Part shown: positions 30,234 through 60,698 of the stretch, in pieces
Position numbering within the stretch: the stretch's first letter is position 1
How the letters are laid out: every line of letters begins with the position of its first letter
Assembly (NCBI GenBank): GCA_963965975.1
Contig: OZ014412.1
Coordinates: 1,304,501 to 1,368,500 of the forward strand
Origin: Xestospongia bergquistia
Taxonomy: Eukaryota > Porifera > Demospongiae > Haplosclerida > Petrosiidae
DNA length: 64,000 bases
Direction: 5' to 3'
Notes under the pieces: model-generated
Told to the model about the DNA's origin: nothing
The model's input: the letters and a program-made list of their open reading frames with translations, nothing else
Database searches by the model: none
Translations under genes and position numbers: made by a program

Positions 30234-31178
30234 TTAGTTTTCATTAGTAAGATTTTCTTTCATCACTTTATGAGCCTCAATCAAAACACTCTCATTTTCT
30301 TCATTATCCTCATTTATCCATTGAATGAACACATCTCTAAAAGCAGGCTCAATTTGACAGTGGTTGTCACCTAAAATAATCATGTGATATCAATGACTGT
30401 TTTTATTAAGTAATAGTTAAAGTTATTAAACTACTACATTAAATAACAATAAGTTACGTATTAGTAATGAAAGTGAGATAAAAGACTAAAGAACTCTTTG
30501 TTAAGGTAAGGGGTTATGCTTAACAGGTCAGTATTTACAGTGATAAGGCTCTAATATGACATGTAAATTGTGGTTCAATTATTCATAAGGACATGATCAA
30601 TCATTGTGATACCCATTGTCAGTAGGCTTTGATTTCTCATAGATTTTGGATTCACCAGACATGTAAATGTTGATAGGAAGTGATATTCTATACTAGAGCT
30701 ATATAATATGTCTTTAAAAACTATAATTACAAGGTGGGTGTGGCACACAATAAAGAGGTCCAAACCTGACTATAGTTAGATAGCTTTGTTAAGTAGCTAT
30801 GTAGTGTTAAAAGAAATCAGGTGACTACTTCCAAGCCATCTCATTGGCTATAAGTCACATAGTCAGTACTAAACTATTCTTAATATAACACATTAGTGTA
30901 CAAATATTTTAATATCACAGCTCAACCCATTCAATATCTTATGTCTTACTTACCAAGTGGTCCATCTGACAAGTCAACAAGAGTAACAATTGAGTCATCT
31001 CCTATTTAAAATAGTTAAAACAATTGTACTATATAATATTCTTACCTTTAAAGTCTTCATTGTCATCAGTCATTATAAAAGGTAGGGTATCTTTATCCAC
31101 TTGGTACTGAGCAATATATTGCCCTGCCTCATACTTCATTGCAAAACCCCAAAACAGAACATCATCATGAATGTGTTC
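30234..31178 (-). CDS. Gene G C-terminal exons 11-13
   Basis: Exons 31178-31046 (EHIHDDVLFWGFAMKYEAGQ, then YQVDKDTLPFIMTDD), 31001-30954 (DDSIVTLVDLSDGPLG) and 30370-30234 (NHCQIEPAFRDVFIQW, ending NLTNEN and TAA). Acidic, with alternating hydrophobic strands. The order FW...YxxxYxV...LPFI is loosely like thioredoxin-fold UAS domains, but I would not assign it without a structure search. Confidence 0.6.
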
Positions 31179-34100
31179 CTGGAGATAAGAAAATAGTAAC
31201 ATATAATACTACAAAATCATACACAACTACATGTACATTAACATGGTTTCCATGACAAAAGACTGGATAATTAATAATTAATAATAATAATTGATAAACT
31301 AACCTGAGGTACTGTGTTAGACTTGAATACAATTATCACAGGGTCATATGGCTTGTCAAATACAGGTTTATCTCTGTCAATTAGTTGACAATATAACAAG
31401 ACAACAGGAATAAAATATGATGAAGACATTTGATCACAAATTAAAGACAAAAACGTTCCATATTTGAAAGCACATGACTTTTCAACAAGAACGAAATTTT
31501 CATGAAATTCATGAAGTGTAGACACCAGCTGGACATTCTTCAGGTGTAAGTCAATTTTCTTTTTGAACACTTTTGTCTTGTCATAATGAGCAACAATTAC
31601 AAGTTTTTTCCTTCCAATCTTGCTACCACCAACTATTTTGTCCCTCACTTTTACTCCTCCTCCAACCAATAAATCATAACGTTGGCACCACCTACCATTA
31701 TCGTAAACATATATCCAGTCTTTTTTGTGAAGATCTTTTGACATCTCTTGATTTACAAAAGTTTTTGCTTTTCCCATAAATGACAAATAAGAAGCAAAAC
31801 ATTCTGTAAAAGAAAAATAAGATGTTTTAGTGTTAAACTAATGGATAATAGAATAGTTGAAAACAGACTTTCTGCTCATGACCAAATATGGTGTTTAGAC
31901 AATAATTAGAACTTGTTCATACATCAAACCAAATCTTACAACAACAAAAGAGGGACAGTTGACTGGTTAACTTAGCATGTACTAAAGTATGAACTTAACC
32001 TTGTTTAATGTGAATAGCAGTAGACTGTAGCCAGTCAAATCACTATAGGGTATCCATAAATTCAAATTACTATAATAAATTCAAGAACTATGCTTGCTGT
32101 GGTAATGTGTCATTATTTGAGTATTTCTTTAGTTGTGTACTTTATTATATAACAACTGTATTGTTGACTGTGAGGACAATAACACAATGTTTGAGTATTT
32201 TAGTTATTATCAATGTAACATTTGATTGGATTGGATTGGAAGTTATTGAATCATAAATCAACTATCATTAAAAATGTTGTTTGCCAAAATCCTTATTCTA
32301 TAAATACAATCCACTCACTATTACACATTGTACACTTCCAATGAACACAACCCACTGTCCAGTATATAAAGTACACATTGTACACTTCCAATGAACACAA
32401 CCCACTGTCCAGTATATAATGTACACATTGTACACTTCCAATGAACACAACCCACTGTCCAGTATATAAAGTACACATTGTACACTTCCAATGAACACAA
32501 CCCACTGTCCAATATATAAAGTACACATTGTACACTTCCAATGAACACAACCCACTGTCCAGTATATAAAGTACACATTGTACACTTCTAATGAACACAA
32601 CCCACTGTCCAGTATATAAAGTACACATTATACGCTCCCAATAAATACAACTTACTGTCCAGTATATAAAGTACACATTATACGCTCCCAATAAATACAA
32701 CTTACTGTCCAGTATATAAAGTACACATTGTACACTCTACCTTGTGCTGAACTCTGTCTATTTCCACTCAAAAAAGGAACTTTCCAATCAGTCTTCTCAT
32801 TACAGTAACATGACTTACTACAATAACCCTATAGGATATATGATCATGTAAAATATGGTCTATCAAAAAAAGAAATAATTAACTAAATGTTTACACAATA
32901 AGATATTATAAATACTACAAGTTTCATGAGAATAAGATGTAGCATATAATGTTAATTTATAATTTATTATGATTATATTCCAAGTATAATAAGGTCATTG
33001 TTCAACCAATTAATATTTGATGGATTTAGAGATTAAATTTTTAATTACCAATTATTATGTCTATTATTTTAATTAAGTACACAAAGTACATCAGATGTTC
33101 TTAGGATAGTCTTTGTTAATTTTCTTGCTAAAAGTACGACTTAAAACTTTTTGAAATAGTTTATCACAGTTTTTTAGTTTATTTTTTTAGTTTATTTTTT
33201 TATTTTAGTTGAGTAACATACACATGCTCACATGTATGTATGTGCATACAGACATGTGTAATCCTTTTATCCATGCAGTAATGGTTACTCACACACTTGC
33301 AGACATTACTTGTCAAATTGGGAATAGAAACAGTCACTATAAATTAATACTTATACTGAAGAAATGGGTAGAATATTTTCTGTCATTTAGTGAGTGTTAT
33401 TAATATTCATATGATTGATTTAAACTGGCCATACAATAGCTTTAACAGTCTCAGAATATATCACAACTTTAACAAGAAAAGCAAGTGTTCTCCAACAACA
33501 AAAATATATGAATGTTACAGTTAGATAGTTGCAAATAGGAAAAAGCTCAATGTTCTGCACATGTTATAACCTCTTAATGTTGTATTTTAGTGAGTATGTA
33601 AGACCATCATATTTCATAATAGGTCTAAGATGAAAAGACCAGCTTATTTCTATAAGCAAAAAATTATTATCTAGAGATTATATGTTAGACTTGACCAAAT
33701 AACTAATTTGATAGTGACTATGGCCTCTTTTTTGTGATGTTTTTTTAAAAAGTAAGGCTAAGCTGAGCAAAATTTATTACTTAAATAAACAGCAAGTGTG
33801 TAATTCACTCAAACCTTTTTATCAGGAACACAGTACGAGGAAATTTATTGAAGATATTTTCATCTACTTTTTATCAAATATTACTTTGAAACAAGGCAGC
33901 TTGGCTGGTATAATCCGAAATTTTACTCAAACTTTTATTATACATACAAATCATTCTACATTATATTACACTTAACATTATATATGATATATTTGAATAA
34001 TGAGTAGTCATAATACCATATTAAAAGGGAGAAAAGAACAAGTAAACCATATAAATAAACACAACATAATTAAATTATATACACATAGAATATAACCATA

Positions 34101-37100: not shown

Positions 37101-40100
37101 AATAGAAAAAACAATAGAGTAAATAAAATGAAAATATTAATTTCAATATAGTTAGATATTATGCTCTTATTGTTGTGTTTCTATAAATCTCAACAAGTAC
37201 TTAGGATTATTACTTCATTATAAATGTAGTACAATAGTAGTATATAAACTTGTTAAAGTCAAGTACAGTAGTCTTGTATCATTATAATATCTAGATTATC
37301 TCTTCTCTAATAGTTACTATTAATTCACAACAGCTTATAGTAAAACACACTTATTCTCATCATCTCAATTACCTTAGTAATAACATCAATATTAGCTCCA
37401 TGATTAACCAATAATTTAACAATGTGTGTATGTCCTTTATAACTTGCATAATGAAGAGCTGTCCATCCTCTCTATTGTAATAATAAACAAACTATTAACT
37501 CTCATATTATACCACTAACATACTATATAAACTAATACTATAAACATACATAGACCTCATAAAAACTATATTGTGTGTTAACACTGTCATAATATAACAT
37601 AATACACTTGTATATTGTCCATATCTAAGTCATGTTGTACATGTAGGATATGACTATATCTATTATTAATACCGTATAGTGGGTATTATTGGCAGCTGAA
37701 ATATTTGATGGTTTGCCATCAAAATAAGCAAAATTAAAATTTGGCGATTTATTAAAATAATTGTTGTAATTAAAGGTGGGTGGTATTAATTAATGGCGAT
37801 TTATTAAAATAATTGTTGTAATTAAAGGTGGGTGGTATTAATTAATGGTGGGTGGTACTGCATGTACTATATAACGCCAGGTGAACACTCGTGAAAGTAG
37901 ATTGATAGATACTTACGAGATTGCTAGTTGTGTGCGAGGTCACCATATATATAAGAGTTTGGAGACCTGTACTTGGCAAAGAGTTCACTTCACTTCATAT
38001 TTAAGAGGCTTGTTCAAGGAAACATCTAGTGGCTGTAGTTTATCAGTGTAATATGCTGGTATTAGAATTGGAATAATGTTATACTGATTTAGTAGGGATT
38101 AGAAGTCAGGTGTAGTTTGTCCACAAAAACAATCAAAAATTGCCAGGACAGTTCTCTTCGTGAAATACCTAAGTAACACCATTTACATAGTGGCTAGCAG
38201 ATGGGGATCGTGTGCAGGGAGGTGTGAAAAATTATTGACGGTTTTTCATTTGACAATTTTGTTACAGACCATCAATACGCCAAATTAAATTTGCTGCCAA
38301 TAATACCCGCTACATGGTAAGTATTTAGTTTTTTAATAGATCTGTTATCACTAATCTATGTGAACATCAAAGACAGCTGTTTAAACTACATACAGTGTAA
38401 TCCAAGGAACTGGTAAACAACACATAAACAAAGCATTGTTAGAATTTAGATCCTATCTAACAGTCAACAGTAACAATATAAAATGTAGTTCTTCATGTTA
38501 TTATACCTATCAACAAAGGGTCTGGTAAACAACACATAAACAGAAAATTGTTAGAATTTAGATCCTATCTAACAGTCAACAGTAACAATATAAAATGTAG
38601 TTCTTCATGTTATTATACCTATCAACAAAGGGTCTGGTAAACAAGACACAAACAGAAAATTGTTAGAATTTAGATCCTATCTAACAGTCAACAGTAACAA
38701 TATAAAATGTAGTTCTTCATGTTATTACACCTATCAACAAAGGGTCTGGTAAATAAGACACAAACAGAAAATTGTTAGGATTTAGATCCTATCTAACAGT
38801 CAACAGTAACAATATAAAATGTAGTTCTTCATGTTATTACACCTATCAACAAAGGGTCTGGTAAACAAGACACAAACAGAAAATTGTTAGGATTTAGATC
38901 CTCTCTTATTATGAAACAGTCCAATATCTCACAACAATATGTGTAGTTCTTCATGTCATTACACCTATCAACTCATCAATGTTACATAATCTCTGTGGTC
39001 CAACAATAAGAACATTCTTGCATTAAGAAGACATCAATAGCCTCATTAATTAAGTAAATCTGGACAAGAATTGCTCCTTTTTTTACCAAGTATAGTATCT
39101 TATAATCTTATAACATATACTTAAAAAGCCACAGCCTATATAATAACTATATTAGCAATATAAATAAACATTTCCTTATAAGGTCATTCTCAAGAAGTAT
39201 TATGGCTTCATGTCATTCTACACTTTTAATGAGATATTGTACTTCCTAGATACAAAATTTAATATGATACTTATACAATATAACTGTACTTTCTAGTTAT
39301 AAAAGATCTATTTTTTATACAAAATAGCTGTAAACATGCTACAGTTAATGTGAATAATGATACTAGAGCATTTTGTTTCTACAAATCACATGAAGCTATA
39401 TATATATAGAGTTATAACATGATGAAATCATGATCCTAAGTTAAATTGGTTACACTGAGCATTCCAAATACATAAGTGAAGTGATGTTGCTAGTTAAAAA
39501 CAATAATAAACAGAACAAAACAGTGTTTTCATTGATCTATAATGCCTTATTAATATAAGTTGATGTACTTCCAATTGAAGTTGGAAATCAATTCAAAATA
39601 TATGAAACCAATTATAAAGAAATTGTCAATTCTCAAAGTAAGAATGGGAAATCTGTAATACTATGTCCTTTCTTATTAATGTGTTATACTATCAACATGT
39701 ATTACTGTTAAACAGACTGTCTGTTAATTAAGGTTTTACTGTAGAGTGTTATGGTAATTATATGTTTGTCACTGCTATGGACACCTTTGTACACAAACAG
39801 CACACCATACCAGTGTTACCCTTGTGAATACTAAAATGCTTTCAGGAATATGTACTATTATTGTAAGGTCACACCTACTGATAGCTACTACTAACTGTGC
39901 TTGTTAATCTTTTACTAACAAAAGATTTAAACAACAAATTGACATTTCTAATAGCCACATCCATAACATTCTACATCTATTAAATACTGATTTAAATCTA
40001 GTGACATGTAGACACACAATATACACTCACCTCATCACAAATATCAGGATCTGCATTGTAGTTTAATAGTAGCTGTACAATATCACAATGACCTTCTTTT

Positions 40101-43100
40101 GAGGCAACATGTAGAGCTGTTTGTTCATCCTAAAGGAAGTACACAAGTATTTATTGTTGATTATAATAGTATAAATTACAATACATACATATGATAAAAT
40201 TTATTAAATTCAAAAAACAAAAGTAAAAATTGTATTAAGATAATTTTTGTTGTGTTAATATTGTAGTTGTTTTCTTATAACATTGTATTTAATATACTTT
40301 GAAATTATATGATGTCTTTACTTGTTAATTTTATTGTCTTTGAATTTTAACTTGAATGTTACACAGAAGACATCAAGAGTATATCCTATTTTCTAACATA
40401 TCTTGTAAATTATGTGCATATGCAAACAATAGCTTTTACCAGACGATATTTGCCTTTGCTAAATGTCTGTGTATAAAGCTATGTCTTGTCTGTTGTAAGT
40501 ACAACGACATTAACAATATACCACATGTAATTTACATGTGTTAGGTACAGCCCAAGATGACACATGGTTACACCAATACAAGAATTAAGGAGTGATTATG
40601 TCTTCTCCATTTAACTACAAGTTTGTTAAAAATAGTAATTCCTTTCAAATGTTCATATTTTCAGAGTTTAAGGAGGTTTAATGATTAGGGAATAAACATG
40701 TGTTCATGAATAACATAAGCTTATTCAACATCAACAACGTATGTTCCTGTCTTCCTATGTCACTTTAAATTATAACTGTAACACCTGGTTTGAAATTAGG
40801 GACGTGTAATACCTCATAATAGAATCATGACTATTAGTAATAACTATCAATAAACACAACATTTTCAACCACACCTCTTGGTAACATCCAGATAAAGTTT
40901 CTACTTGCCTCTAGTGTATAGTGAACCATTTCTCTCAAAATTAAAATGGGAGCAGTTCACTACTGGCTGTGCTTCTTACACTCAAGCAGTTAGGGTTTAA
41001 GTTTTTGGTGGGAGTCTAATAACAGTATAAAAGTATAGTATAATGCTGATGATACCATTTCAATGGTCATCAGAACATTTTACACAAACACCATGCCACA
41101 CCAGTGGTACCTCTGTCAATACCAAGATGCTTTCAAGGATATGTACTGATATAATAGGTTACACTTATTGAGGCCACACATCACACAATATACACTCACC
41201 TCATCACAAATATTGGGATCTGCATTGTAGTTTAATAGTAGCTGTACAATATCACAATGACCTTCTTTTGAGGCAACATGTAGAGCTGTTTGTTTATCCT
41301 AAAGGAAGTACACAAGTATTTATTGTTGATTATAATAGTGTAAAAATATATTGATATTTTTTAGTGTTTGCATAAATCTCAACAAGAGGATCTAGTACTA
41401 AGGACTATTACTTCATTGTGAATGTAGTAAAAGTGTACTATATAAACTTGTTAAAGTCAGGTACAGTAGCCTTGTATCATATAGTGTCCATATTATCTCT
41501 TCTATAATAGTTACTATCAATTCACACAGAAACACACTTATTCTCATCATCTCAATTACCTCATTAACAACATCAATATTAGCTCCATGATTAACCAATA
41601 ATTCAACAATGTCTGTATGCCCTTTATAACTTGCATAATGAAGAGCTGTCCATCCTCTCTATTGTAATAATAAATAAAATATTACTCTCAAATTAGACCT
41701 TATAAAACCTATCTTGTGTTAACACTGTCATAATATAACATACTACACTTGTATATTGTCCATATCTAAGTCATGTTGTAGATTTAGGATATGACTATAT
41801 CTATTATTAATAAATATTTAGTTTTTGAATAGGTCTTTTAACACTAATTTAAGCAAACATCAAAGACAGCTGCTTAAATTATATACAGTATAATCTAAGG
41901 AACTGGTAAACAACACACAAACAGAAAATTGTTAGGATTTAGATCTTCTCTATTATGAAACAGTCCAGTACCTCACAAAGTTCTTCGTGTCATTTCACCT
42001 ATCAACTATCATTATATCATATGACTCTTATCATTATATTACTACAATAACTAACATTATTTCTGTCTGGTAATTATTACATCTTATAAACTATATAGCT
42101 CCTTAACAATCTTTACATTAAACACAAACAAAGCTGGCTTTTAAAGTGTGGTTTATTTGAGATAAAAAACCAACTATGAACTTAACAACCAAATTTGGGT
42201 TATCAAATATAATGCTTGCCAAATGAGTGTGCCTCCATGACAGGGTCAGACTCAAGAAATGTCTACTTGTACAATTTCTTTGTTGCTTAAGGTAATACAA
42301 TGGCACTAACTGTTTCTTAATTGTTTAAATAGTTATAGAACAAAGTTATAAAATACTTTACAGTGGAACTTTACAGACTTTCATATATTCACTACAATAG
42401 ACAATAACTATGGAACATGACCTTTTTCATTGACAACAATGGAATTGTATCCTCTTAAACGTGGACAGTTCCATTTTAGGACAATAATAACTTTTTATGA
42501 CCCCAGAATTAGTACTAGCACTGGCAATTTGCCGTTTATAACAGATAATGGGTGTGTCTAATGTACTCCACACAGACTCAATTTATACAATCAAAGGTTT
42601 TGCAACAAATTCTTTCTTAAGTACTTTGTTTAAGCTTGAATAAAGTTGTCAATATTTTGTTACAACCTCTTGAATATAGTTCTAACCTGATGTAATGTAA
42701 TATAATAATTGTACATTATCTACATCAAACATTTTTATCTATGTATTACATGAATATACTAGTAACATTACAAACCTAGACAACATTATATATCTAGTCA
42801 ACAATATGTCCATTATAGTCAATATTAGCTAAAAACACAGTATTGGTCATAATTAAAGAAACATTTTCAGACTAACTGCCTCATTTATAAAACATATAGT
42901 CTCTTGTATAATAAATGATATTAACTTACCTGATCTATAGCATTTACATTAGCTCCTATTAAGAGAGCATATTCTACTCCAGACAAGTTTCCATTCTTAA
43001 CAGATTCAATTAAACTGTCATTCTATGGTAAAATAAAAGTTTAAAAGTATCATTTAAAATAATGCATGATCTCATTTCATAAATTTGAAATATGTCAGAC

Positions 43101-46100
43101 AAAAAAGAACAAGATATTTCATTCATTTCCTCCAAACATATCATAGAACACATTTAAATATTAAACATTTAAACATTTAAAGATTATAAGTAATAATAGC
43201 AACGCAAATATGGAAACAAAAAAAACAATAGAATAAACAAAATGACAACATTGAATTCAATATAGTTAGAAATTATATTACATTATATCACACTTACCGA
43301 CTATTATATTGTAAATGACACATTGAGATCATAAGTAATCATAGCAATGTAAATATGGAAACAAAAAAACAATAGAGTAAACAAAATGACAACATTGAAT
43401 TCAATACAATTAGAAATTATACTACATTATATCACACTTACCAACTATTATATTGTAAATGACACATTGAGATCATAAGTAATCATAGCAATGTAAATAT
43501 GGAAACAAAAAAAACAATAGAGTAAACAAAATGACAACATTGAATTCAATACAATTAGAAATTATACTACATTATATCACACTTACCTCCTATTATATTG
43601 TAAAAGACACAATGAGAACATAAGTAATCATAGCAATGTAAATATGGAAACAAAAAAAAACAATAGAATAAACAAAATGACAACATTGAATTCAATACAC
43701 TTAGAAATTATACTACATTATATCACACTTACCAACTATTATATTGTAAAAGACACATTGAGATCATAAGTAATCATAGCAATGTAAATATGGAAACAAA
43801 AAACAATAGAGTAAACAAAATGACAACATTGAATTCAATACAATTAGAAATTATACTACATTATATCACACTTACCAACTATTATATTGTAAATGACACA
43901 TTGAGATCATAAGTAATCATAGCAATGTAAATATGGAAACAAAAAAAACAATAGAGTAAACAAAATGACAACATTGAATTCAATACACTTAGAAATTATA
44001 CTACATTATATCACACTTACCAACTATTATATTGTAAAAGACACATTGAGATCATAAGTAATCATAGCAATGTAAATATGGAAACAAAAAACAATAGAGT
44101 AAACAAAATGACAACATTGAATTCAATACACTTAGAAATTATACTACATTATATCACACTTACCAACTATTATATTGTAAAAGACACATTGAGATCATAA
44201 GTAAACATAGCAATGTAAATATGGAAACAAAAAACAATAGAGTAAACAAAATGACAACATTGAATTCAATACAATTAGAAATTATACTACATTATATCAC
44301 ACTTACCTCCTATTATATTGTAAAAGACACAATGAGAACATAAGTAATCATAGCAATGTAAATATGGAAACAAAAAAAACAATAGAGTAAACAATATGAC
44401 AACATTGAATTCAATACAATTAGAAATTATACTACATTATATCACACTTACCGACTGTTATATTGTAAAAGACATATTGAGATCATAAGTAATCATAGCA
44501 ATGTAAATATGGAAACAAAAAACAATAGAGTAAACAAAATGACAACATTGAATTCAATACAATTACAAATTATACTACATTATATCACACTTACCAACTA
44601 TTATATTGTAAAAGACACATTGAGATCATAAGTAATCATAGCAATGTAAATATGGAAACAAAAAAAATAGAGTAAACAAAATGACAACATTGAATTCAAT
44701 ACAATTAGAAATTATACTACATTATATCACACTTACCAACTATTATATTGTAAAAGACACATTGAGATCATAAGTAATCATAGCAGTGTAAATACGGAAA
44801 CAAAAAAAACAATAGAGTAAACAAAATGGCAACATTGAATTCAATACAATTAGAAATTATACTACATTATATCACACTTACCAACTATTATATTGTAAAA
44901 GACATATTGAGATTATAAGTAATCATAGCAATGTAAATATGGAAACAAAAAAACAATAGAGTAAACAAAATGACAACATTGAATTCAATACAATTAGAAA
45001 TTATACTACATTATATCACACTTACCCGCTATTATATTGTAAAAGACACATTGAGATCATAAGTAATCATAGCAATGTAAATACGGAAACAAAAAACAAT
45101 TGAGTAAACAAAATGACAACATTGAATTCAATACAATTAGAAATTATACTACATTATATCACACTTACAGTCTATTATATTGTAAAAGACACATTGAGAT
45201 CATAAGTAAACAGTGCAATGTAAATATGGAAACAAAAAAACAATAGAGTAAACAAAATGGCAACATTGAATTCAATACAATTAGAAATTATACTACATTA
45301 TATCACACTTACAGTCTATTATATTGTAAAAGACACATTGAGATCATAAGTAAACAGTGCAATGTAAATATGGAAACAAAAAAACAATAGAGTAAACAAA
45401 ATGACAACATTGAATTCAATACAATTAGAAATTATACTACATTATATCACACTTACCAACTATTATATTGTAAAAGACACATTGAGATCATAAGTAATCA
45501 TAGCAATGTAAATATGGAAACAAAAAAAACAATAGAGTAAACAAAATGGCAACATTGAATTCAATACAATTAGAAATTATACTACATTATATCACACTTA
45601 CCGACTATTATATTGTAAAAGACATATTGAGATTATAAGTAATCATAGCAATGTAAATATGGAAACAAAAAAACAATAGAGTAAACAAAATGACAACATT
45701 GAATTCAATACAATTAGAAATTATACTACATTATATCACACTTACCAACTATTATATTGTAAAAGACACATTGAGATCATAAGTAATCATAGCAATGTAA
45801 ATATGGAAACAAAAAAACAATAGAGTAAACAAAATGACAACATTGAATTCAATACAATTAGAAATTATATTACATTATATCACACTTACTGACTATTATA
45901 TTGTAAAAGACACATTGAGATCATAAGTAATCATAGCAATGTAAATATGGAAACAATAAAAACAATAGAGTAAACAAAATGACAACATTGAATTCAATAC
46001 AATTAGAAATTATACTACATTATATCACACTTACCGACTATTATATTGTAAAAGACATATTGAGATTATAAGTAATCATAGCAATGTAAATATGAAACAA

Positions 46101-49100
46101 AAAAACAATAGAGTAAACAAAATGACAACATTGAATTCAATACAATTAGAAATTATACTACATTATATCACACTTACCAACTATTATATTGTAAAAGACA
46201 CATTGAGATCATAAGTAATCATAGCAATGTAAATATGGAAACAAAAAAACAATAGAGTAAACAAAATGACAACATTGAATTCAATACAATTAGAAATTAT
46301 ACTACATTATATCACACTTACCCGCTATTATATTGTAAAAGACACATTGAGATCATAAGTAATCATAGCAATGTAAATATGGAAACAAAAAACAATTGAG
46401 TAAACAAAATGACAACATTGAATTCAATACAATTAGAAATTATACTACATTATATCACACTTACCGACTATTATATTGTAAAAGACATATTGAGATCATA
46501 AGTAATCATAGCAATGTAAATATGGAAACAAAAAAAACAATAGAGTAAACAAAATGACAACATTGAATTCAATACACTTAGAAATTATACTACATTATAT
46601 CACACTTACTGACTATTATATTGTAAAAGACACATTGAGATCATAAGTAATCATAGCAATGTAAATATGGAAACAAAAAAACAATAGAGTAAACAAAATG
46701 GCAACATTGAATTCGATACAATTAGAAATTATACTACATTATATCACACTTACCAACTATTATATTGTAAAAGACACATTGAGATCATAAGTAAACATAG
46801 CAATGTAAATATGGAAACAAAAAAACAATAGAGTAAACAAAATGACAACATTGAATTCAATACAATTAGAAATTATACTACATTATATCACACTTACCGA
46901 CTATTATATTGTAAAAGACACATTGAGATCATAAGTAATCATAGCAATGTAAATATGGAAACAAAAAAACAATAGAGTAAACAAAATGACAACATTGAAT
47001 TCAATACAATTAGAAATTATACTACATTATATCACACTTACCCGCTATTATATTGTAAAAGACATATTGAGATCATAAGTAATCATAGCAATGTAAATAC
47101 GGAAACAAAAAAACAATAGAGTAAACAAAATGACAATATTGAATTCAATACACTTAGAAATTATACTACATTATATCACACTTACCAACTATTATATTGT
47201 AAAAGACACATTGAGATCATAAGTAATCATAGCAATGTAAATATGGAAACAAAGAAACAATAGAGTAAACAAAATGACAACATTGAATTCAATACAATTA
47301 CAAATTATACTACATTATATCACACTTACCCGCTATTTTATTGTAAAAGACACATTGAGATCATAAGTAATCATAGCAATGTAAATATGGAAACAAAAAA
47401 ACAATAGAGTAAACAAAATGGCAACATTGAATTCAATACAATTACAAATTATACTACATTATATCACACTTACCTCCTATTATATTGTAAAAGACACATT
47501 GAGATCATAAGTAAACATAGCAATGTAAATATGGAAACAAAAAAACAATAGAGTAAACAAAATGACAACATTGAATTCAATACACTTAGAAATTATACTA
47601 CATTATATCACACTTACCAACTATTATATTGTAAAAGACATATTGAGATCATAAGTAATCATAGCAATGTAAATATGGAAACAAAAAAACAATAGAGTAA
47701 ACAAAATGACAACATTGAATTCAATACAATTAGAAATTATACTACATTATATCACACTTACCGACTATTATATTGTAAAAGACACATTGAGATCATAAGT
47801 AATCATAGCAATGTAAATATGGAAACAAAAAACAATAGAGTAAACAAGATGACAACATTGAATTCAATACACTTAGAAATTATATTACATTATATCACAC
47901 TTACCGACTATTATATTGTAAAAGACACATTGAGATCATAAGTAATCATAGCAGTGTAAATATGGAAACGAAAAAAACAATAGAGTAAACAAAATGACAA
48001 CATTGAATTCAATACACTTAGAAATTATACTACATTATATCACACTTACCAACTATTATATTGTAAATGACACATTGAGATCATAAGTAATCATAGCAAT
48101 GTAAATATGGAAACAAAAAATACTTGAGTAAACAAAATGACAACATTGAATTCAATACAATTAGAAATTATACTACATTATATCACACTTACCGACTATT
48201 ATATTGTAAAAGACACATTGAGATCATAAGTAATCATAGCAATGTAAATATGGAAACAAAAAAACAATAGAGTAAACAAAATGACAACATTGAATTCAAT
48301 ACAATTAGAAATTATACTACATTATATCACACTTACCAACTATTATATTGTAAAAGACACATTGAGATCATAAGTAATCATAGCAATGTAAATATGGAAA
48401 CAAAAAAACAATAGAGTAAACAAAATGACAACATTGAATTCAATACACTTAGAAATTATACTACATTATATCACACTTACCGACTATTATATTGTAAAAG
48501 ACACATTGAGATCATAATTAATCATAGCAATGTAAATATGGAAACAAAAAAACAATAGAGTAAACAAAATGACAACATTGAATTCAATACAATTAGAAAT
48601 TATACTACATTATATCACACTTACCTCCTATTATATTGTAAAAGACACATTAAGATCATAAGTAATCATAGCAATGTAAATATGGAAACAAAGAAACAAT
48701 AGAGTAAACAAAATGACAACATTGAATTCAATACAATTAGAAATTATACTACATTATATCACACTTACCTCCTATTATATTGTAAAAGACACATTGAGAT
48801 CATAAGTAATCATAGCAATGTAAATATGGAAACAAAAAACAATTGAGTAAACAAAATGACAACATTGAATTCAATACAATTAGAAATTATACTACATTAT
48901 ATCACACTTACCTCCTATTATATTGTAAAAGACACATTGAGATCATAAGTAATCATAGCAATGTAAATATGGAAACAAAGAAACAATAGAGTAAACAAAA
49001 TGACAACATTGAATTCAATACACTTAGAAATTATACTACATTATATCACAATTACCGACTATTATATTGTAAAAGACACATTGAGATCATAATTAATCAT

Positions 49101-52100
49101 AGCAATGTAAATATGGAAACAAAAAAACAATAGAGTAAACAAAATGACAACATTGAATTCAATACAATTAGAAATTATACTACATTATATCACACTTACC
49201 AACTATTATATTGCAAATGACACATTGAGATCATAAGTAATCATAGCAATGTAAATATGGAAATAAAGAAACAATAGAGTAAACAAAATGACAACATTGA
49301 ATTCAATACAATTAGAAATTATACTACATTATATCACACTTACCAACTATTATATTGTAAAAGACACATTGAGATCATAAGTAATCATAGCAATGTAAAT
49401 ATGGAAACAAAAAACAATTGAGTAAACAAAATGACAACATTGAATTCAATACAATTAGAAATTATACTACATTATATCACACTTACCTCCTATTATATTG
49501 TAAAAGACACATTGAGATCATAAGTAATCATAGCAATGTAAATATGGAAACAAAGAAACAATAGAGTAAACAAAATGACAACATTGAATTCAATACAATT
49601 AGAAATTATACTACATTATATCACACTTACCTCCTATTATATTGTAAAAGACACATTGAGATCATAAGTAAACATAGCAATGTAAATATGGAAACAAAAA
49701 AACAATAGAGTAAACAAAATGACAACATTGAATTCAATACAATTAGAAATTATACTACATTATATCACACTTACCGACTATTATATTGTAAAAGACACAT
49801 TGAGATCATAAGTAAACATAGCAATGTAAATATGGAAACAAAAAAACAATAGAGTAAACAAAATGACAACATTGAATTCAATACAATTAGAAATTATACT
49901 ACATTATATCACACTTACCGACTATTATATTGTAAAGGACACATTGAGATCATAAGTAATCATAGCAATGTAAATATGGAAACAAAAAAACAATAGAGTA
50001 AACAAAATGACAACATTGAATTCAATACACTTTGAAATTATACTACATTATATCACACTTACCAACTATTATATTGTAAAGGACACATTTAATTTACAAG
50101 TAATTATAGTAACATTAAAGTAATACAATACAAAAAAGATAGTAAGGATGGGAATTGCATCATTTCTACACAATAACACAGGTAGCACAAGTAATGAAGG
50201 GTTTTCTCCAATTATTTTAATCACTTACATAATATCAGTGATATATTGTTGTATTCTGTGTCTGTGCTATTATGAAGAGATAATATAATTACACTCCTTA
50301 CTATCTTGTTTGCATTCTTTGTATTGGATTGATATTAGCCATTCTTACATTTACTTCATTTTTTTATAAAATATTTATTTTTTGTTTGCTTCTTTGCTTA
50401 CTTTTTGTTAAATTGCAGGTGTTTTAATTGCAAATACATATTGAATTCTTACATATTGTAATAAAAAATAACAATTATTATGGAATTGTTCCATCAACAA
50501 AGAGGTTCTCCAGAATACAACCGGAAAGTTGTAATGATACTTAATCCATTACATCAACTTATAGTCATTAGCTTATCAGTCATACAATAATGATTATTGA
50601 CGTTTTTTTAAGCTGAACATTAAACCAGGAAATAGTCCATACTTAATGGTAGAAGTAGGAGAATAATATTCTCATTCATTTGTTTCCATTAAATATTAAT
50701 TATTCATAGAAAATCAGTTTTCTAAGAGAAGCTCTTGATAGTAAACTGCTAAAATTACTTATTTTGTTTTACAAAAGTGGATAATTAGTTTCAATTTATG
50801 CTGTGTCTGGGAAAATAATGGAAAATCTTTCACTTTTTGTATTGTTGTTGTGGACAAAGAAGGACAAGAAATATGAAGATTCAAAATTTTCAACCAACTT
50901 TTACTGTGATGCTTGCTTTAACCTATAAACCAGTCATAACATGAAGATAATTCTAGTGAGGATGACTGACAACTATAAAGATACTCTGATATGCTTTGGG
51001 TGAGATACTCTTGTGTTTTTTACCAATATTTTTCAATGGACAATCTGGGTCATCCATATATACATAGGCACTATTATCACATGTCTGATATATGGTAGTG
51101 GACTAGTTTAATTTAAATAGTCTCTTTCCATCTTTTATTTGTGACAATTTTTATAAACAATAAATACAAATCAAAAACAAATGCAAGAAAGATCTAATAT
51201 ATAGCCTCAAAAGAGAGTTTATCCCATTCTTGGTTATTAAATCAAATCTAATACTGTAAGTATAAATAAATAATATGGGCATAATCATGTTGAGAAGGTA
51301 TCTCTAAGTAAGAGGGACAGTGTAATAAGTAATCTCTTGAACAATGTTATATAATGCACTCTAATCATATCTAGTCTCGATTGTTATATTTATAACTATG
51401 TATTATTATGTATGACCTTTTTGACTGGTTATAAATAGCACAATCTTATTATATAGTCCTTTTTTCATAATCTAAACTTAGTCATGACACCTTTAACACT
51501 AAGTCCTATCTTTTAGCTCACAATTTCTCTTGAAGCTAAAGTTATTGTACTAACAGTGTTATCAAATTTGGAACTGTGCTCTATTCAAATATTCAGTTTA
51601 CTGTTATCAATGGTCAAATGAAACATGGTTCCAACTGACATAGAGTACAGATACCAATTCATTGTCAATTGCAAATAATAAATTCATGTAATTTCTATCA
51701 TCATTGCTATTTTGTGTGGGGATTTCAATAGAAGAGAAAAACAAACAATCAAGCAATGGTACTTATTAACAAATATGATATAATCTCTCAATAACCCAGT
51801 TAGCTCATATTAAACATACTTATATACACTTATATAAAGTAATGTCAGTGTATGTGTACTGACTACTTAATAACATGAGGAATTACTGACATTAAAAAGT
51901 ACATTAGGAACTGCACCCTCATGAATATTTAATTAGGACAATATATACTACATGTCCCAACAACATATTGTTGTGACATGAACAAATATTGTGTGGGTGT
52001 GTCCATATATAATATACTGCTGACCTTATCACTAGTATTGTCAATATTGTCATGTTCAGAAGAAACCTCTGAGTGGCAACTCTTAGAGGAAATCTAGAGG

Positions 52101-52282
52101 AAATAAAAATACATTAGTAATTGTTAATGATTATTAAGTTAATATTTTACAGTTTCAGGTCCAGGATTGAGTTCAATATCTCCTGATAAAATAAGTAGAA
52201 GCAAGAGAAATGAGGCTAGAGAGAAGGTTAGGCCATCATCACTCTCATCTCTTGGTCCTCCTTTTGACCATTGACACTCCAT
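30234..52282 (-). CDS. Gene G: 2A leader, five ankyrin repeats, novel C-terminal region
   Basis: Thirteen exons with agreeing phases (551 codons plus stop from the ATG at 52282): 52282-52151, 52093-52025, 43022-42930, 41658-41560, 41298-41200, 40129-40031, 37471-37373, 34207-34148, 32828-32741, 31803-31304, 31178-31046, 31001-30954, 30370-30234. The leader (MECQWSKGGP..., then SLASFLLLLLILS) ends in the 2A motif GDIELNPGP. Five ankyrin repeats follow (for example RGWTALHYASYKGHTDIV and ELLVNHGANIDVVNE), then a Cys-rich segment (CYNTC, GYCSKSCYC) and about 275 residues I do not recognise (contains DWIYVYDNGRWCQRYDLLV and VLFWGFAMKYEAGQYIAQY). 2A would make ribosomes skip the Gly-Pro bond and release a cytosolic ankyrin protein of about 510 residues. 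Without skipping, the hydrophobic leader could target the whole chain to membranes. The start could instead be 52384 or an upstream exon. Confidence 0.7.
31304..31803 (-). CDS. Gene G exon 10, unrecognised globular domain
   Basis: A 500-nt exon with clean acceptor (TTTTACAG) and donor (CAG|GTTAG), open throughout. It contains a basic N-terminal half (KDLHKKDWIYVYDNGRWCQR, GGGVKVRDKIVGGSKIGRKK) and a hydrophobic C-terminal half (FIPVVLLYCQL, PYDPVIIVFKSN). No family recognised. It is the largest exon of the gene. Confidence 0.6.
32322..32737. repeat. 50-bp minisatellite in gene G intron
   Basis: Unit of 50 bases containing GTACACATTGTACACTTCCA and ATGAACACAACCCACTGTCC, about 8 copies. The two units nearest the exon are the most diverged (TACGCTCCCAATAAATACAA). 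The array begins within a few bases of the GTAGAG donor of exon 9. Confidence 0.9.
32741..32828 (-). CDS. Gene G exon 9, Cys-rich
   Basis: Encodes GYCSKSCYCNEKTDWKVPFL and more, flanked by CTATAG acceptor and GTAGAG donor. With exon 8 (34148-34207, TPLCYNTCTYGLHCIDPVYK) it forms a cysteine-dense linker of six to seven Cys that may bind zinc. Confidence 0.55.
33000..34140. other. Intronic, nothing recognised
   Basis: AT-rich intron of gene G without coding or repeat structure that I can support. Confidence 0.4.
34148..34207 (-). CDS. Gene G exon 8
   Basis: 60-nt phase-0 exon, TPLCYNTCTYGLHCIDPVYK, between TATATAG acceptor and GTAAGTG donor. It lies directly after the 144-bp satellite array in transcript order. 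Confidence 0.55.
34385..37135. repeat. 144-bp satellite array 1 (about 19 units) in gene G intron
   Basis: Units of 143-145 bases containing CTACATTATATCACACTTAC, CTATTATATTGTAAAG and GTGGAAACAGAAAAA. Two or three unit types (with AATCACAGCAATGTAAATGTGG or ATTTACAGCAAAGTTAATGCGG) alternate in a higher-order pattern. Read on the transcript strand each unit has ACAATATAATAG, three bases, then GTAAGTG (GTCAGT in one unit). Related to array 2. Confidence 0.92.
37373..37471 (-). CDS. Gene G exon 7, ankyrin repeat 5
   Basis: A 99-nt phase-0 exon encoding one full ankyrin repeat: RGWTALHYASYKGHTHIVKL and LVNHGANIDVITK. Differs from exon 4 by a handful of residues, so it arose by recent duplication. 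Confidence 0.85.
37672..38317. mobile_element. TA-flanked TIR element (about 646 bp)
   Basis: Inverted ends CCGTATAGTGGGTATTATTG on the left and its near complement ending CCCGCTACATGG on the right, flanked by TA. The interior holds a tandem 52-bp duplication (GGCGATTTATTAAAATAATT...GGTGGGTGGTATTAATTAAT) and no ORF of note. It is non-autonomous, Tc1/mariner style by its TA target. Confidence 0.75.
38405..38975. repeat. 112-bp tandem repeat, about 4.5 units
   Basis: Repeats of CAAAGGGTCTGGTAAACAA, then AATTGTTAGAATTTAGATCC and AACAATATAAAATGTAGTTC at 112-base spacing inside a gene G intron. A single diverged copy is at 41900-42000, so the array grew after the exon duplication. Confidence 0.85.
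38980..40025. other. Intronic, no gene
   Basis: AT-rich intron. 39770-39960 resembles 41060-41180, part of the duplication of ankyrin exons and flanks. Confidence 0.5.
40031..40129 (-). CDS. Gene G exon 6, ankyrin repeat 4
   Basis: 99-nt phase-0 exon encoding DEQTALHVASKEGHCDIVQL and LLNYNADPDICDE, between CTTTAG acceptor and GTGAGT donor. Only two residues differ from exon 5. Confidence 0.88.
41200..41298 (-). CDS. Gene G exon 5, ankyrin repeat 3
   Basis: 99-nt phase-0 exon: DKQTALHVASKEGHCDIVQL and LLNYNADPNICDE, complete ankyrin helix-turn-helix pattern (TALHVA, IVQLLL, GAN-like NAD). Confidence 0.88.
41560..41658 (-). CDS. Gene G exon 4, ankyrin repeat 2
   Basis: 99-nt phase-0 exon: RGWTALHYASYKGHTDIVEL and LVNHGANIDVVNE, a textbook ankyrin repeat, flanked by ACAATAG acceptor and GTAATT donor. 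Confidence 0.88.
42930..43022 (-). CDS. Gene G exon 3, ankyrin repeat 1 (capping)
   Basis: 93-nt phase-0 exon: NDSLIESVKNGNLSGVEYAL and LIGANVNAIDQ. It fits an N-terminal capping ankyrin repeat. It is the first exon after the 9-kb intron that holds satellite array 2. Confidence 0.82.
43180..50095. repeat. 144-bp satellite array 2 (about 48 units) in gene G intron
   Basis: Nearly homogeneous head-to-tail units (CTACATTATATCACACTTAC, CTATTATATTGTAAAAGACA, CATTGAGATCATAAGTAATC, GGAAACAAAAAAACAATAG, CAACATTGAATTCAATAC). It is the same family as array 1. Single-site variants are scattered, but the three bases between ACTTAC and CTATTAT take six forms (caa, cga, ctc, ccg, agt, tga by eye). Near the right edge the sequence decays at 50095. 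Confidence 0.95.
50130..52020. other. Intronic spacer with LINE scrap
   Basis: 50240-50420 matches the 5' part of the non-LTR remnants at 6450-6590 and 25845-25985 (GATATTAGCCATYC, TTACTTCATTYTTTTA). The remainder to 52020 shows no gene. Confidence 0.5.
52025..52093 (-). CDS. Gene G exon 2
   Basis: 69-nt phase-0 exon ISSKSCHSEVSSEHDNIDNT then SDK, with TTTCCTCTAG acceptor and GTCAGC donor. It links the 2A exon to the ankyrin repeats and forms the flexible acidic start of the released product. Confidence 0.6.
52157..52183 (-). other. 2A ribosome-skipping motif (GDIELNPGP)
   Basis: Minus-strand codons read G-D-I-E-L-N-P-G-P, an exact match to the D-V/I-E-x-N-P-G-P consensus for 2A-mediated skipping, preceded by the leucine-rich run FLLLLLILS. 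Known hydrophobic 2A leaders in sea urchin and sponge proteins have this form and can act as signal sequences when skipping fails. The Gly-Pro junction is at 52160/52159. The exon ends two codons later at a GTAAAA donor. Confidence 0.9.
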
Positions 52283-52506
52283 CCATTCTGGCAGAACAAG
52301 GGTAGTTCCCAGTGGAGTCTGTATATATACTGTATGATGATCCTCTAACTCATGAGCAGTAAGTTTAACATCAACTATTGTCATATAGACATAAGTAAAT
52401 GATAAATAAAGTAATTATCAGAAATAATGATAACAAATATTATTGTTCATATACTGATATCTTATTATTTGTACAGTATATAATATATAGTACAACATAT
52501 AATATA

Positions 52507-56700: not shown

Positions 56701-59700
56701 ACTCTCCACACTTCAACACCACCATGTAACACTTGCACTACATACGTTAAATATTTCAATGTGTAATAACATTAGTGTGTTTAATTTTCTTACATCATCC
56801 AACATTCAAAATTTTTTTAACAATGAAACTTTCCCAATCTACAGTATTTTATTTGGTGGAATAAGAACAGAAGGAGGGAGGGTCAAGTGTCCCCCTCTTT
56901 AATAATCGTAAGTGAAGTACACATAAGCTCTCAAGCTTGAGTCTACCATAAGTATTAATATCTTGAAGTATACATTCTAATTGCCTTCCCCTTCCCAATT
57001 TCACTCATCTTCCTACTCTATTGTTATCCCAGTACAGTGCTAGCTCTGTATTATTGTCCTATGTCATATTTGATGAAATAAAGAAGCATATAGCTCAATC
57101 ACAAACTCTCAAAGTCAGAGAATTATTTAAAAGAAAAGGTTGTCATTAGTATTTTGAAAGAATTACTATTGGCACAGATAAGTTATAAATAATTCCCTTT
57201 GACATTAATAAGAAACATGAAGCATCTATTACTAATAGAGTACAGACATTTATATATTTATCAACAAAAACATGAAATCATTGATAAATACATCGTGTTT
57301 CTCATTATATACCATCAAAGAGAATTATTAAGAAGTCTTGTCATTACACACAAGGATTAGACTTGTAGCATTTTGACAGGGCTGCCTTAGGTTGGTCTTG
57401 TGTGACAAATTGTTTATATTATTTAAATCACAAATATCTTTCAAGCTATGAAGCCACACCCATATTTTGTTAACAATGCAGTTTCAGAAATTGAAATTTC
57501 TTTATGAAATTTTGAGATTTGTAATTTGACAAACCACTAGTCAAACTAAACACAAATACAGCATAAATATAGACTAATGAATAGGCAGTTTTGCAGGTTA
57601 CAAGGATTCAAACTCATAATGAATTGGCTCATCTCCTGGCTAAGCAATTATAATAAGATTTATACCTCATATACTTTGAATGGAACACTTATAAAAAGGT
57701 CTATATTTGAAATGTGAAAACAAAAGTAAGTTATATCAGATACATTATGGTTTGTTGATCCATATCCATAATAATTAAACCAACTAACTTAGGATTTTGT
57801 AAATGGTTACCTTGTTGACAGGTTTATGTAATATACCATGGATTGCAGTAATATCAAACCTGAACCCCAAACCCCAAGATATCAGCCTAAGGCAAAGCGA
57901 TGGCTGATACCGATGGGTTCAGGTCTGTTATTGCTGCTAACACCTGGTACATATAATATAGTTTATAATTTAAGGGCATCCATATCTCTATGAAACTCAA
58001 CACTATCAAGAATTCATAATGTCAGTGACACAACATGATAGTAATACTATGATAACTAAAACACATTTGTTTATACAGTAGTAATATAAAAGTTCACCTC
58101 TCATATATAGTGTTAACATACCTTATCATCACCTGTATGGTAAGAACGTATTTCTATTAATAAAAAAACATTAACAATTTATGTATTAAAACACCATAGA
58201 TGTCTACCTTCATTGGATGATTTTCTCTTTCTGAGAACAATACAACTAACAAATATTATTGCTGTCAGTGCCAGTTCTATTAAAGCCACTATAGCAACTA
58301 CAGCTACCAAACCAGATATCAATAAGATATTATTATCTGGAGGTATAATACAAAAAGTCATTATGAACTAACTAGTATATTCAATTATAGTATATATTAA
58401 ACATTCCATTAATGGGTTCCACAGATGTGTTTATACCATAAAAGCTAACAATGTCAGTGACTATTACATCTCTTGATGCTATGAATAAAATAGTATATTA
58501 CCGTATATCGGGAAAGTTTCATTGTTAAAAAAGCTTGAACATTGGATGATGTAAGAAAATTAAACACACTAATGTTATTACACATTGAAATATTTAAAGT
58601 ATGTATTGCAAGTCTTTACATGGTGTTGAAGTGTAGATACGACTAGATGGCTCTTTTGAGATATCTGAAACTTATAGATGATCCAAAAGGTTCTATCATC
58701 CTCCATACAGCCACAGGCAATTGCTCAGCCAAATAATAAAATTAGAAAGGCCATGAAAGCATGTCAAGAAAATGCTGACCTTATCAGCTATACAGTTCAG
58801 GCATACAAGCTAAAATTGGTAAATACACTAGCCATCATGGTGTTACTGCAGCCATGACTTTCCTTTTTAAAGTTATATACATGATAACCTCAAATAAAAA
58901 TAATCTATATTGTACAAATATAGTGCTCAATGTGTTGCATATTGCAAAATTTAGGGGTTAATAAATTTTCGGACACACCTCTTGTGTCCAAAAATTTTTT
59001 GCATGTTAACTTTTTACATGAAACTTTTGTAACACGAAAGTTTCCCGATTAATAGTATAATACATAACAGTACAATATACTACTTACTACTCATCATAAA
59101 ACAGAGTAAAACATAATACTTACCAGTAGTAATATCAGTCTCAGTAGGAGATGGTAGTAGTAAGATATACTCTAGTACTTGAGGGTATACAACAGATGGG
59201 TTAGTTATAATAGTACCATCTACTATATCATGAGCTGTCACAGTATAGTTACCACTAACTGGTAGACTTATATACTGGTATACTGTACTCTCCTCTATAT
59301 TGGATTTACTCATATTAATAGACTTCACAGTTCCTTTAGAAAACTCTCTAAATATCACATGACATCCATTAGCAGTAGATCTCTCAGCAAACCTACACTC
59401 TACAACAAGTGATCCATTATCAGAGTAATATTGTAGAGTGAGTCCTTGAACATGATAGGTTTCTATGGTGATAAGAATTTAAAACAATATAATTATAGTA
59501 TATATGTATATATATGATCATATTAATTAATAATAAAAACACTTACTGAAGTATGACTCATTCTTTGTTTTAGAGTTATTAAAATAATCCAGTATATCAG
59601 CAATGAAGATATAATTTAGTTGAGGACCAATGTTTAATACACTGTAGCTAATAGTCACTGATTGTCTATCGTCTACAATACATTTAGAAGAATGTTCTGT

Positions 59701-60698
59701 GTCTGTTCCATTAATTACTGAGTACTCTCTTGTAATACCCAGTAATGTACTATTACAGAGTCTAGGATATCCTATAATCTAGATACATACACATTGTGAA
59801 TATTACAATATAAATCTATTGTTATTACTTACAGAGACATTGAATTCCACGTCAAAGGAATTATTGTGTTCATTAAAGGTGACCTCATGATCAGGTAAAA
59901 TATTACAATAGTACTCTATAATATATGACAATTAAGGTCATCTGAATATCTAATTGCAGATATACCTCCACTAAACTCATCTTGAGTACTAGTACTATTA
60001 GAGCTATATTCTCCACTATGAGCTATAACAGTAGCAGTGTAAATATCACAGATTGTGAGGTTATATAACTTATAAGATGTATCATTAGTAATATCATTAT
60101 ATAGTAACTGGCCATGTTGGTTCTCTATATAAATGTGATATGATAGTGGATAGTTCTTAAATGGATGAGACCAGTTCAACCAGTTTGAAGAACTGGTAAA
60201 ATCAAATTTGAACTGGAGGTATTCTACTGGGTTAATACCTATTGAATAATAAATGATAATAAATTATTATTATTATAGAATCTATATACCTTTAACTATT
60301 AAAGTAGCTCCCTTTGATATAGGATAGGAGTTCTCACCTACTACAATGCATCCAATAGTTATTCCATCATTAATAGGTAGTGCTCTTATAGTTAGTACTG
60401 ATGACCACACATCAACTGATATATTGTTAGTAGTTACTGTTATCTCTCTGTCTTGATTAGTGGGATCAGTGAGTGAATTACCCTGTACTGACCAGATCAG
60501 TACATATCCTCTACCTTTACAGGTAAAGTTCACCGTTGTGTAAAGAGGAGATATCACTGATAAAGGAGCTATTGTGATAGCTGTATTAAAAGACAAGTGG
60601 TAATATAAACTAATTTTATTTCCATCTCACTTACAATCACTCTCTGTTTTCATCAATACGAAGAGAAGCAGAATAGCGCTAGCCCTGGAACGAAACAT
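53755..60698 (-). CDS. Receptor gene F: signal peptide-Ig-FN3-TM, distinct tail
   Basis: Ten exons in agreeing phase, 627 codons with stop: 60698-60635 (signal peptide, FRSRASAILLLFVLM), 60580-60290 (Ig: NFTCKG, LIWSVQG, ITIGCIV), 60238-59966 (FN3-like, WLNWSHP, YTATVIAHSG), 59915-59833, 59778-59547, 59462-59124 (YHVQGLTLQYYSD), 58478-58437, 58336-58208 (TM ISGLVAVVAIVALIELALTA, then LRKRKSS), 54226-54158 (DNDDCVYISPTTSTD) and 54113-53755. The tail lacks NPxY but has tyrosines in acidic context (LEYIIEDEP, ELVYITQ) and a CCC cluster that could be lipidated. Splicing across the 4-kb intron holding MITE copies is inferred from phase. An extra exon at 54267-54342 (EQSSHEKHPLHVNDNGSA) is possible. 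Confidence 0.72.
54267..54342 (-). CDS. Possible extra exon near receptor F tail
   Basis: Between TTCTTACATAG acceptor and ATTG|GTAATA donor, frame EQSSHEKHPLHVNDNGSAQN. Its 3' phase matches the 54158-54226 exon, but its 5' phase does not match the F transmembrane exon. It would need a further exon or another promoter. Confidence 0.35.
55442..55562 (-). CDS. Terminal-exon-like ORF, unknown
   Basis: After an acceptor-like CTATACAGCAG the minus strand is open to a TAG: EIKKDNNNQTKLIHINPSCV, then VNVGNIIPLNVEAGTILLWV. Composition looks coding and the LNVEAGTILLW run resembles a beta-sandwich strand pair. No partner exon is in phase nearby, so it may be a fossil. Confidence 0.25.
55740..56844. 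mobile_element. Composite of inverted MITE copies
   Basis: Contains a minus-oriented piece (55740-55950), a nearly full plus-oriented copy (about 55956-56528) and a minus-oriented piece (56531-56844) of the element that sits whole at 58501-59055. Shared marks are TTTTGAGATATCTGAAACTT, CATCCTCCATACAGC and AAATTTAGGGGTTAATAAAT. Ends read AATCGGGAAAG-like or CTTTCCCAATCTA. Confidence 0.7.
57828..57950. repeat. Short hairpin/foldback
   Basis: Arms AATATCAAACCTGAACCC and GGGTTCAGGTCTGTTATTGC, plus inner arms ATATCAGCC and GGCTGATA, form a long hairpin of about 110 bases between TACCAT and TGGTAC. It is either a small foldback MITE or a structured RNA source. Confidence 0.5.
58501..59055. mobile_element. 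MITE (555 bp) within receptor F intron
   Basis: Flanked by TA on both sides, ends CCGTATATCGGGAAAG and CTTTCCCGATTAATAG inverted. It lies between exons 6 and 7 of gene F, so it should be spliced out. Same family as 55740-56844. Confidence 0.75.

Follow-up and report, generated by a model that had tools for sequence, protein, structure and literature searches.

The described systems closest to the element reported here come from sea urchins and viruses. In Strongylocentrotus purpuratus, the SpNLR2A immune-receptor genes carry D(V/I)ExNPGP within an N-terminal hydrophobic leader, which is 26 residues long and acts as a whole as a signal sequence (PMC4981915). Among viral motifs, StopGo cores with LLLLSG-like motifs upstream have been described and assayed; related to this class are motifs 2 and 6, of which the latter proved active when assayed, and motifs of the class direct StopGo in vitro (PMC12846837). 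Hence 2A leaders on sea-urchin NLRs are already known, and so is the occurrence of 2A in non-long-terminal-repeat (non-LTR) elements. The 2A sequences of non-LTR retrotransposons were reportedly treated by Odon in 2013, and eukaryotic 2A sequences are said to have been surveyed by Rao (Cell Reports, 2025), in a study that may include sponge cases. Here we describe a leader exon ending in a StopGo/2A element and followed by ankyrin-repeat exons, on the minus strand of a 64,000-nucleotide stretch of the sponge Xestospongia bergquistia (contig OZ014412.1, positions 1,304,501 to 1,368,500; the whole stretch is called the window). With a probability of roughly 0.7, we read this exon as a StopGo/2A leader that belongs to a genome-wide family and that would be freed as a tail-anchor-like peptide, with the ankyrin protein being cytosolic. 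The sequence, the family, a contrast in selection, a splice-compatible exon chain and the gene architectures are the observations on which we build.

The leader exon and its genomic family

Translation of the minus strand from 52384 to 52151 gives MTIVDVKLTAHELEDHHTVYIQTPLGTTLVLPEWMECQWSKGGPRDESDDGLTFSLASFLLLLLILSGDIELNPGPET, followed by a GT donor. The encoded leader ends in FSLASFLLLLLILSGDIELNPGPET, and its intact StopGo/2A core is preceded by a hydrophobic run. The parts of the exon are as follows.

52151..52384, minus strand: leader exon with the 2A element at its end; 78 codons if the ATG at 52384 is the start; donor ACT/GTAAAA, phase 0
52157..52180, minus strand: DIELNPGP, the core of the StopGo/2A element, with the skip predicted at the junction of Gly (52162-52160) with Pro (52159-52157)
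52181..52234, minus strand: hydrophobic run GLTFSLASFLLLLLILSG, last six residues LLILSG
52343..52384, minus strand: position of the family head MIDxxQWRxSIGLW, degenerate in the window copy (15% mean identity to other leaders)
52375..52376, minus strand: AG of a possible 3' splice acceptor slightly inside the leader; a YAG stands at the equivalent place in the related copies L039 and L020, and the exon may be internal

The first-pass annotation of the window had picked out GDIELNPGP with a leucine-rich run before it and had taken the element for a 2A. Both the motif and the run are present on the minus strand, in the reading frame that it gave. The identity of the element is borne out by its perfect core, in which DIELNPGP matches (D/G/C/N)(V/I)ExNPGP in frame, and by the permissive upstream hexapeptide LLILSG, which is of the LLLLSG-like class and has G at p11 where p12 is D (PMC12846837). 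The nucleotide pattern AAYCCNGGNCC occurs once in the window, at the 2A core; 100 shuffles gave a mean of 0.06 matches, with at least one match in 6 of them.

Across the whole assembly (146.46 Mb in 21 contigs), the eight-codon pattern D(V/I)ExNPGP has 161 sites (95 DI and 66 DV) and the reversed pattern none, so the match in the window is not due to chance. Under genetic code 4, an 18,997-base contig gives a 522-aa COX1 that resembles those of demosponges. A search with the window leader protein likewise returned at least 148 stretches at E<=0.01, the best 150 of 172 first-look candidates having been scored. We read the sequence around 105 of the 161 core sites, 92 of which are distinct by one rule and 100 by another. 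A WR-type head (WR, QLR, QWT or QCR) is found in 66 of the 92; one of these is L010, in which a WR occurs by chance within the linker. Under stricter criteria the same 92 sites fall into a QWR class of 64, a PHD class of 11 and 17 elsewhere. The last group contains the window copy and its paralogue, together with copies that have a head cut off or spelt otherwise. An alignment of 66 leaders, window copy and L010 included, gives the family layout: M-I-D-x-x-Q-W-R-x-S-I-G-L-W at the head, then a linker that varies, then the hydrophobic run, and finally a Leu-rich hexapeptide and D(I/V)ExNPGP. The hexapeptide is exactly LLILSG in 46 of the 66 WR-type sites. Every one of the 66 aligned leaders contains a 17-residue stretch of mean hydropathy >=1.6, and between this stretch and the released end lie 2-12 residues (mode 7). 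The median leader length is 72 residues in the family; the window leader would have 75 once released. Compared with the QWR family, the window copy shows a mean identity to other leaders of 75% over the hydrophobic run and 94% over the core, and we take it to be a divergent member of the genome-wide family.

The regions of the leader differ in the ratio of nonsynonymous to synonymous substitution rates (dN/dS, Nei-Gojobori), which we computed for 64 leaders without the two C2 copies, over 925 pairs of moderate divergence and with bootstrap ranges. The values are 0.21 (0.17-0.25) for the head, 1.09 (0.97-1.20) for the linker, 0.27 (0.21-0.33) for the distal hydrophobic part, 0.07 (0.03-0.13) for the hexapeptide and 0.16 (0.11-0.22) for the core; owing to the common descent of the leaders and to probable gene conversion, the pairs are not independent, and the values serve as a contrast between regions, not as an absolute measure. 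The bootstrap range of the linker overlaps that of no other region. With all 66 leaders, coarser regions and 990 pairs, dN/dS was 0.26 for the head, 0.94 for the linker, 0.23 for the hydrophobic part and 0.15 for the core. Since the head is conserved and constrained in most of the leaders read, the leader itself probably has a function beyond that of a skip device.

The sponge leaders resemble SpNLR2A in carrying D(V/I)ExNPGP in an N-terminal hydrophobic leader of immune-receptor genes. They differ in being about 72 residues long and in their build, the head being conserved, the linker neutral and the hydrophobic run C-terminal, and they stand also on ankyrin, GBP and other genes; moreover, NACHT is without a match in the window gene, and a scan for Death sequence, weak for short exons, found none in it (PMC4981915 for SpNLR2A). 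The first-pass annotation had named both sea urchins and sponges as precedents for hydrophobic 2A leaders on NLR-type proteins. The sea-urchin precedent is confirmed, whereas the accessible text of the same paper has no mention of sponge, Amphimedon or Porifera (PMC4981915), and searches of open-licence papers for 2A in sponges or together with these domains returned nothing relevant. With viral motifs 2 and 6 (PMC12846837), the sponge leaders share a Leu-rich hexapeptide ending in SG, D at p12 and the NPGP core, but they form a cellular gene family, have mostly L at p15, and possess a hydrophobic stretch that reaches about 10 residues further upstream and is conserved there. Viral relatives of the leader were sought by scanning viral contigs with a ten-leader alignment; 11 pattern matches were obtained, none of which was confirmed.

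What the leaders precede

The leader, exon 2 and five ankyrin exons contain no stop, and the six introns that join these seven exons are all GT-AG and all in phase 0. The gene can be laid out as follows.

52025..52093, minus strand: exon 2, ISSKSCHSEVSSEHDNIDNTSDK; bounded on either side by phase-0 junctions and also conserved in L039
43181..50089, no strand assigned: 144-bp tandem array of 48 copies, occupying most of the ~9-kb intron 2
42930..43022, minus strand: ankyrin exon 1; the homologous exon in L039 lies ~0.9 kb from L039 exon 2
41560..41658, minus strand: ankyrin exon 2
41200..41298, minus strand: ankyrin exon 3
40031..40129, minus strand: ankyrin exon 4, a near copy of ankyrin exon 3
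37373..37471, minus strand: ankyrin exon 5, a near copy of ankyrin exon 2
30237..31684, minus strand: C-terminal region, four pieces of which are homologous (60-77% identity) to the last part of L039

Four of the ankyrin exons, when joined, match Ank_2 in Pfam at E=7.2e-40. In the paralogue L039 (C2:1270000-1279500), whose leader is 74% identical to that of the window, only ~0.9 kb separates exon 2 from the first ankyrin exon, and AG and GT stand at the borders. Given this short counterpart, the long intron 2 of the window is most simply explained by satellite expansion. The chain 52151 to 52093 to 43022, by which the first-pass annotation had joined the leader to a five-ankyrin gene, is thus supported by GT-AG borders, a common phase 0 and a short-intron paralogue. 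Neither the window copy nor L039 has a phase-1 donor right after PGPKT, as the QWR family does; both have the phase-0 ACT/GTAAAA.

The C-terminal part of the gene is less regular. The piece at 31226-31032 contains a stop in the frame aligned to L039 and is perhaps an intron. In the paralogue, a frame at L039:1883-3259 (minus strand) bears a Walker-A-like GPPCVGKTA and DAGGQ, for which tblastn found no match in the window; for the L039 C-terminal frame, neither Pfam (E up to 5) nor the chains of the PDB (E up to 1) gave a match, and the window frame 31837-31271 matched no Pfam entry up to E=0.01. NACHT was found in the window neither among the best 103 of 156 candidates scored nor in a domain-query scan. 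Domain queries, Death-type included, gave no match against the whole window at 1e-4, a scan that is weak for short exons, the ankyrin query having missed the known short ankyrin exons as well. Two repeat arrays flank the ankyrin exons, at 34338-37162 and 43181-50089, with 145/144-bp units and strong AT skew; their consensus units look related.

Elsewhere in the genome, the leaders often precede genes of immune type. NACHT lies downstream on the same strand for at least 49 of the 161 sites (at 765-4240 bases, with a limit of 7 kb) and on the opposite strand for none among the matches listed; conversely, at least 49 of the 95 listed NACHT matches have a 2A core site upstream, 95 being a lower bound (best 103 of 156 candidates scored). 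At 26 sites or more, NACHT also lies upstream on the same strand, as expected of tandem arrays. In 38 of the 66 WR-type rows, a phase-1 donor directly behind the 2A places the leader in frame with a downstream frame longer than 60 residues, the phase-1 acceptor being located inside a conserved peptide motif of that frame. By eye, 32 of these 38 frames begin with a Death-fold or CARD-like sequence; the other six are L022, L069, L100, L104, L106 and the second L043 frame.

We then scored the first domain downstream, on the same strand, for 100 distinct sites, using queries taken from the same genome. Death type A came first at 41 sites, PHD at 14, Death type B at 13 and a CARD-like domain at 3; the Death of PHD genes followed at 2, and another Death (L049, before ZU5), a TPR and a kinase at 1 each. 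For 24 of the 100 sites, the window copy (L009) and L039 among them, the scan found no domain, and 19 of the 24 have less than 0.9 kb of sequence. NACHT, LRR_6, Ank, GBP (E=2e-33), PHD_5 and one Death exceeded the Pfam cut-offs, and the other Death matches, PHD, ZU5, kinase and RVT_1 stayed below them. The label CARD-like and part of the Death labels were assigned by eye, several of these frames having no Pfam match, and the genome-wide Death list consists of the best 150 of 983 candidates.

A few single loci show other partners. L044 (C3:1555900-1561500) has a QWR-2A leader, then a Death-like sequence with no Pfam match, then the GTPase domain of a guanylate-binding protein (Pfam GBP E=2e-33). 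In L048 (C7:5987400-5993000), the 2A DIESNPGP precedes a kinase-like frame whose Pfam match does not reach the cut-off (E=0.0024), and a frame bearing WRVRIG lies just upstream of the 2A. L003 (C1:2173414-2176436) combines a WR-headed 2A leader with a same-strand TPR frame downstream (TPR_2 E=7e-14) and, by eye, a reverse-transcriptase-like frame on the other strand.

Predicted fate of the leader and competing explanations

We propose that at NPG/P the nascent LLILSG-DIELNPG would block formation of the Gly-Pro bond, that the leader of 75 residues would be released, and that translation would resume from Pro into the ankyrin protein. The freed leader would carry a hydrophobic segment of ~15-17 residues ending 7 residues from its new C-terminus, a tail-anchored layout with which it would enter membranes after release; the downstream protein would remain cytosolic, and chains that did not skip would be membrane-anchored (signal-anchored) fusions. 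Skipping, membrane insertion and function are thus predictions of the model. One leader peptide would be made for each immune-type protein behind it, and the window copy has kept the hydrophobic/2A part, its head and linker having decayed.

Tail-anchored proteins have one hydrophobic segment within ~30 residues of the C-terminus, and in the released window leader the run ends 7 residues before the end. The likeness lies in this single segment at the extreme C-terminus, the difference in that the C-terminus of the leader would come from ribosome skipping instead of a stop codon. Since the ribosome tunnel covers roughly 30-40 residues and the segment ends 7 before the release site, the segment should not have met the signal recognition particle when skipping is decided.

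We tentatively extend this proposal to the QWR-2A leaders as a whole, which could be conserved, exon-borne microproteins released by skipping and inserted into membranes as tail-anchored peptides, one per immune-type protein. The NLR, ankyrin and GBP arms would then have the leader as a co-product in common, acting as adaptor, sensor or inhibitor; the window gene would have kept the skip and lost the head. That the job of the leader is that of a membrane co-product of immune-type proteins is our guess. A single animal genome with 161 core sites, in which a selected leader family, frequently attached to Death-fold and NACHT genes, accounts for 66 of the 92 distinct sites read, provides a natural system for asking why cells use ribosome skipping, whether its efficiency is tuned and whether the freed leader has a job. 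The contrast in selection between head, linker and tail leads to direct mutant predictions, and leaders reading NYGP supply natural, probably skip-dead, variants.

Several points weigh against our proposal. The window copy lacks the family head (15% mean identity over the 14 head columns), and its differences from its C2 paralogue L010, counted as nonsynonymous/synonymous, are 3/0 in the head, 21/6 in the linker, 1/1 in the hydrophobic part and 0/2 in the core; head and linker show no constraint, and any constraint is confined to the hydrophobic/2A end, where the sites are few. Neither of the two paralogues compared, L039 and L020, conserves the ATG at 52384. L020 (C2:1289226-1289438) and L021 (C2:1291197-1291409), near-identical leaders of the C2 group, read GDIELNYGP and are probably skip-dead natural variants; relative to the window they show a 9-base gap within the hydrophobic run. 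In the wider family, 28 of the 66 WR-type rows lack either a recognised donor or a joined frame longer than 60 residues, and the dN/dS contrast carries the non-independence given above. Finally, our tail-anchor interpretation is drawn from the spacing and from what is generally known of the tunnel, and the hydrophobic run may be kept solely because StopGo needs it.

The first-pass annotation had suggested that one gene could give a cytosolic and a membrane-directed form. Partial skipping would then split the ankyrin protein, skipped chains going to the cytosol and unskipped ones to the secretory/membrane route by means of the hydrophobic signal anchor. For the sea-urchin NLR leader, such dual targeting was shown experimentally, with ~80% recoding in vitro (PMC4981915), and putative membrane-bound NLRs have been reported in sponges, Amphimedon first (PMC12909245); the latter might be such 2A leaders. 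The constraint on the distal hydrophobic part beyond the StopGo hexapeptide also suits this explanation. However, ~50 residues precede the run and 7 separate it from the release site, so that it should still be in the tunnel at the skip decision and the freed leader is the more obvious candidate for the membrane product, and the conserved head, which the window copy lacks, suggests a function of the leader's own. Two forms of one gene are therefore possible, but as a secondary outcome, and we hold dual targeting as the explanation of this leader to be rather unlikely. A different objection concerns the start of the exon: because the ATG is not conserved and a YAG stands near its position in all three C2 copies (window, L039 and L020), immediately before TTGATGTTAAAC or its equivalent, the C2 copies may start elsewhere or their leader exon may be internal. 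In that case skipping would part a longer N-terminal protein from the ankyrin protein. In L039, a pyrimidine stretch precedes the YAG and the leader frame has no Met ahead of the 2A. Yet no upstream exon was identified, and a conserved MI(D/N) begins the leaders of other families. The open frame 54153-53755, considered as the upstream part of the window gene, was rejected; it stops at the same place in L039 and for this reason appears to close the tandem gene that lies before it. We regard an internal leader exon in the C2 subfamily as improbable.

The window copy could also be a decaying family member that inherited its 2A intact, in a gene that does not, or does not any longer, have a functional product. 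The lost head, the non-conserved ATG and the unconstrained linker are what decay would leave, as are the NYGP neighbours, the P-loop part of the paralogue unmatched in the window, the stop in one aligned C-terminal piece and the long satellite inside an intron. On the other hand, six introns have kept GT-AG borders and one phase, the leader, exon 2 and five ankyrin exons are free of stops, and the core and hydrophobic run are intact, and we consider decay doubtful. That the 2A is part of a retrotransposon upstream, and not of a host gene, is extremely improbable, even though 2A-PHD-reverse-transcriptase elements with a 2A near their start are present in this genome (L050), as in the non-LTR case. 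Reverse-transcriptase queries matched on the same strand at only 2 of the 100 distinct sites, both of the PHD type and probably retrotransposons, and the window leader is in phase with host ankyrin exons. Two reverse-transcriptase queries and a PHD query, a domain that such elements carry, gave no match in the window at 1e-4, and no reverse transcriptase was found downstream of the window copy or L039; with the in-phase ankyrin exons, this led us to reject a retrotransposon origin. Two other loci bear on such elements: an array at C4:8.60-8.91 Mb has the same 2A-PHD start as L050, and L047 reads 2A, PHD finger and then Death sequence (Pfam E=1.1e-6), possibly a retrotransposon start captured by a host gene.

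Other features of the window

A frame on the plus strand at 23597-23944 encodes a PHD finger (E=2.2e-6), with no 2A adjoining. Several separate frames of LTR-type retroelements and a MULE transposase fragment occupy 2521-5917 and 489-740 on the minus strand, with RNase H and integrase of an LTR-type retroelement in 2809-3924, also minus. Frames resembling receptors with immunoglobulin (Ig) and fibronectin-III domains were recognised by eye on the minus strand at 7849-9862, 16316-16934, 19162-20323, 21391-23079, 27063-28033 and 59080-60626. Of three frames in 8411-9862 compared with Pfam, one matched fn3 (E=2.6e-7), one matched Ig_3 weakly and one had no clear match. Some of the receptor frames have a hydrophobic stretch and a tail of the NPAYDEG type, and together they look like a tandem receptor family.

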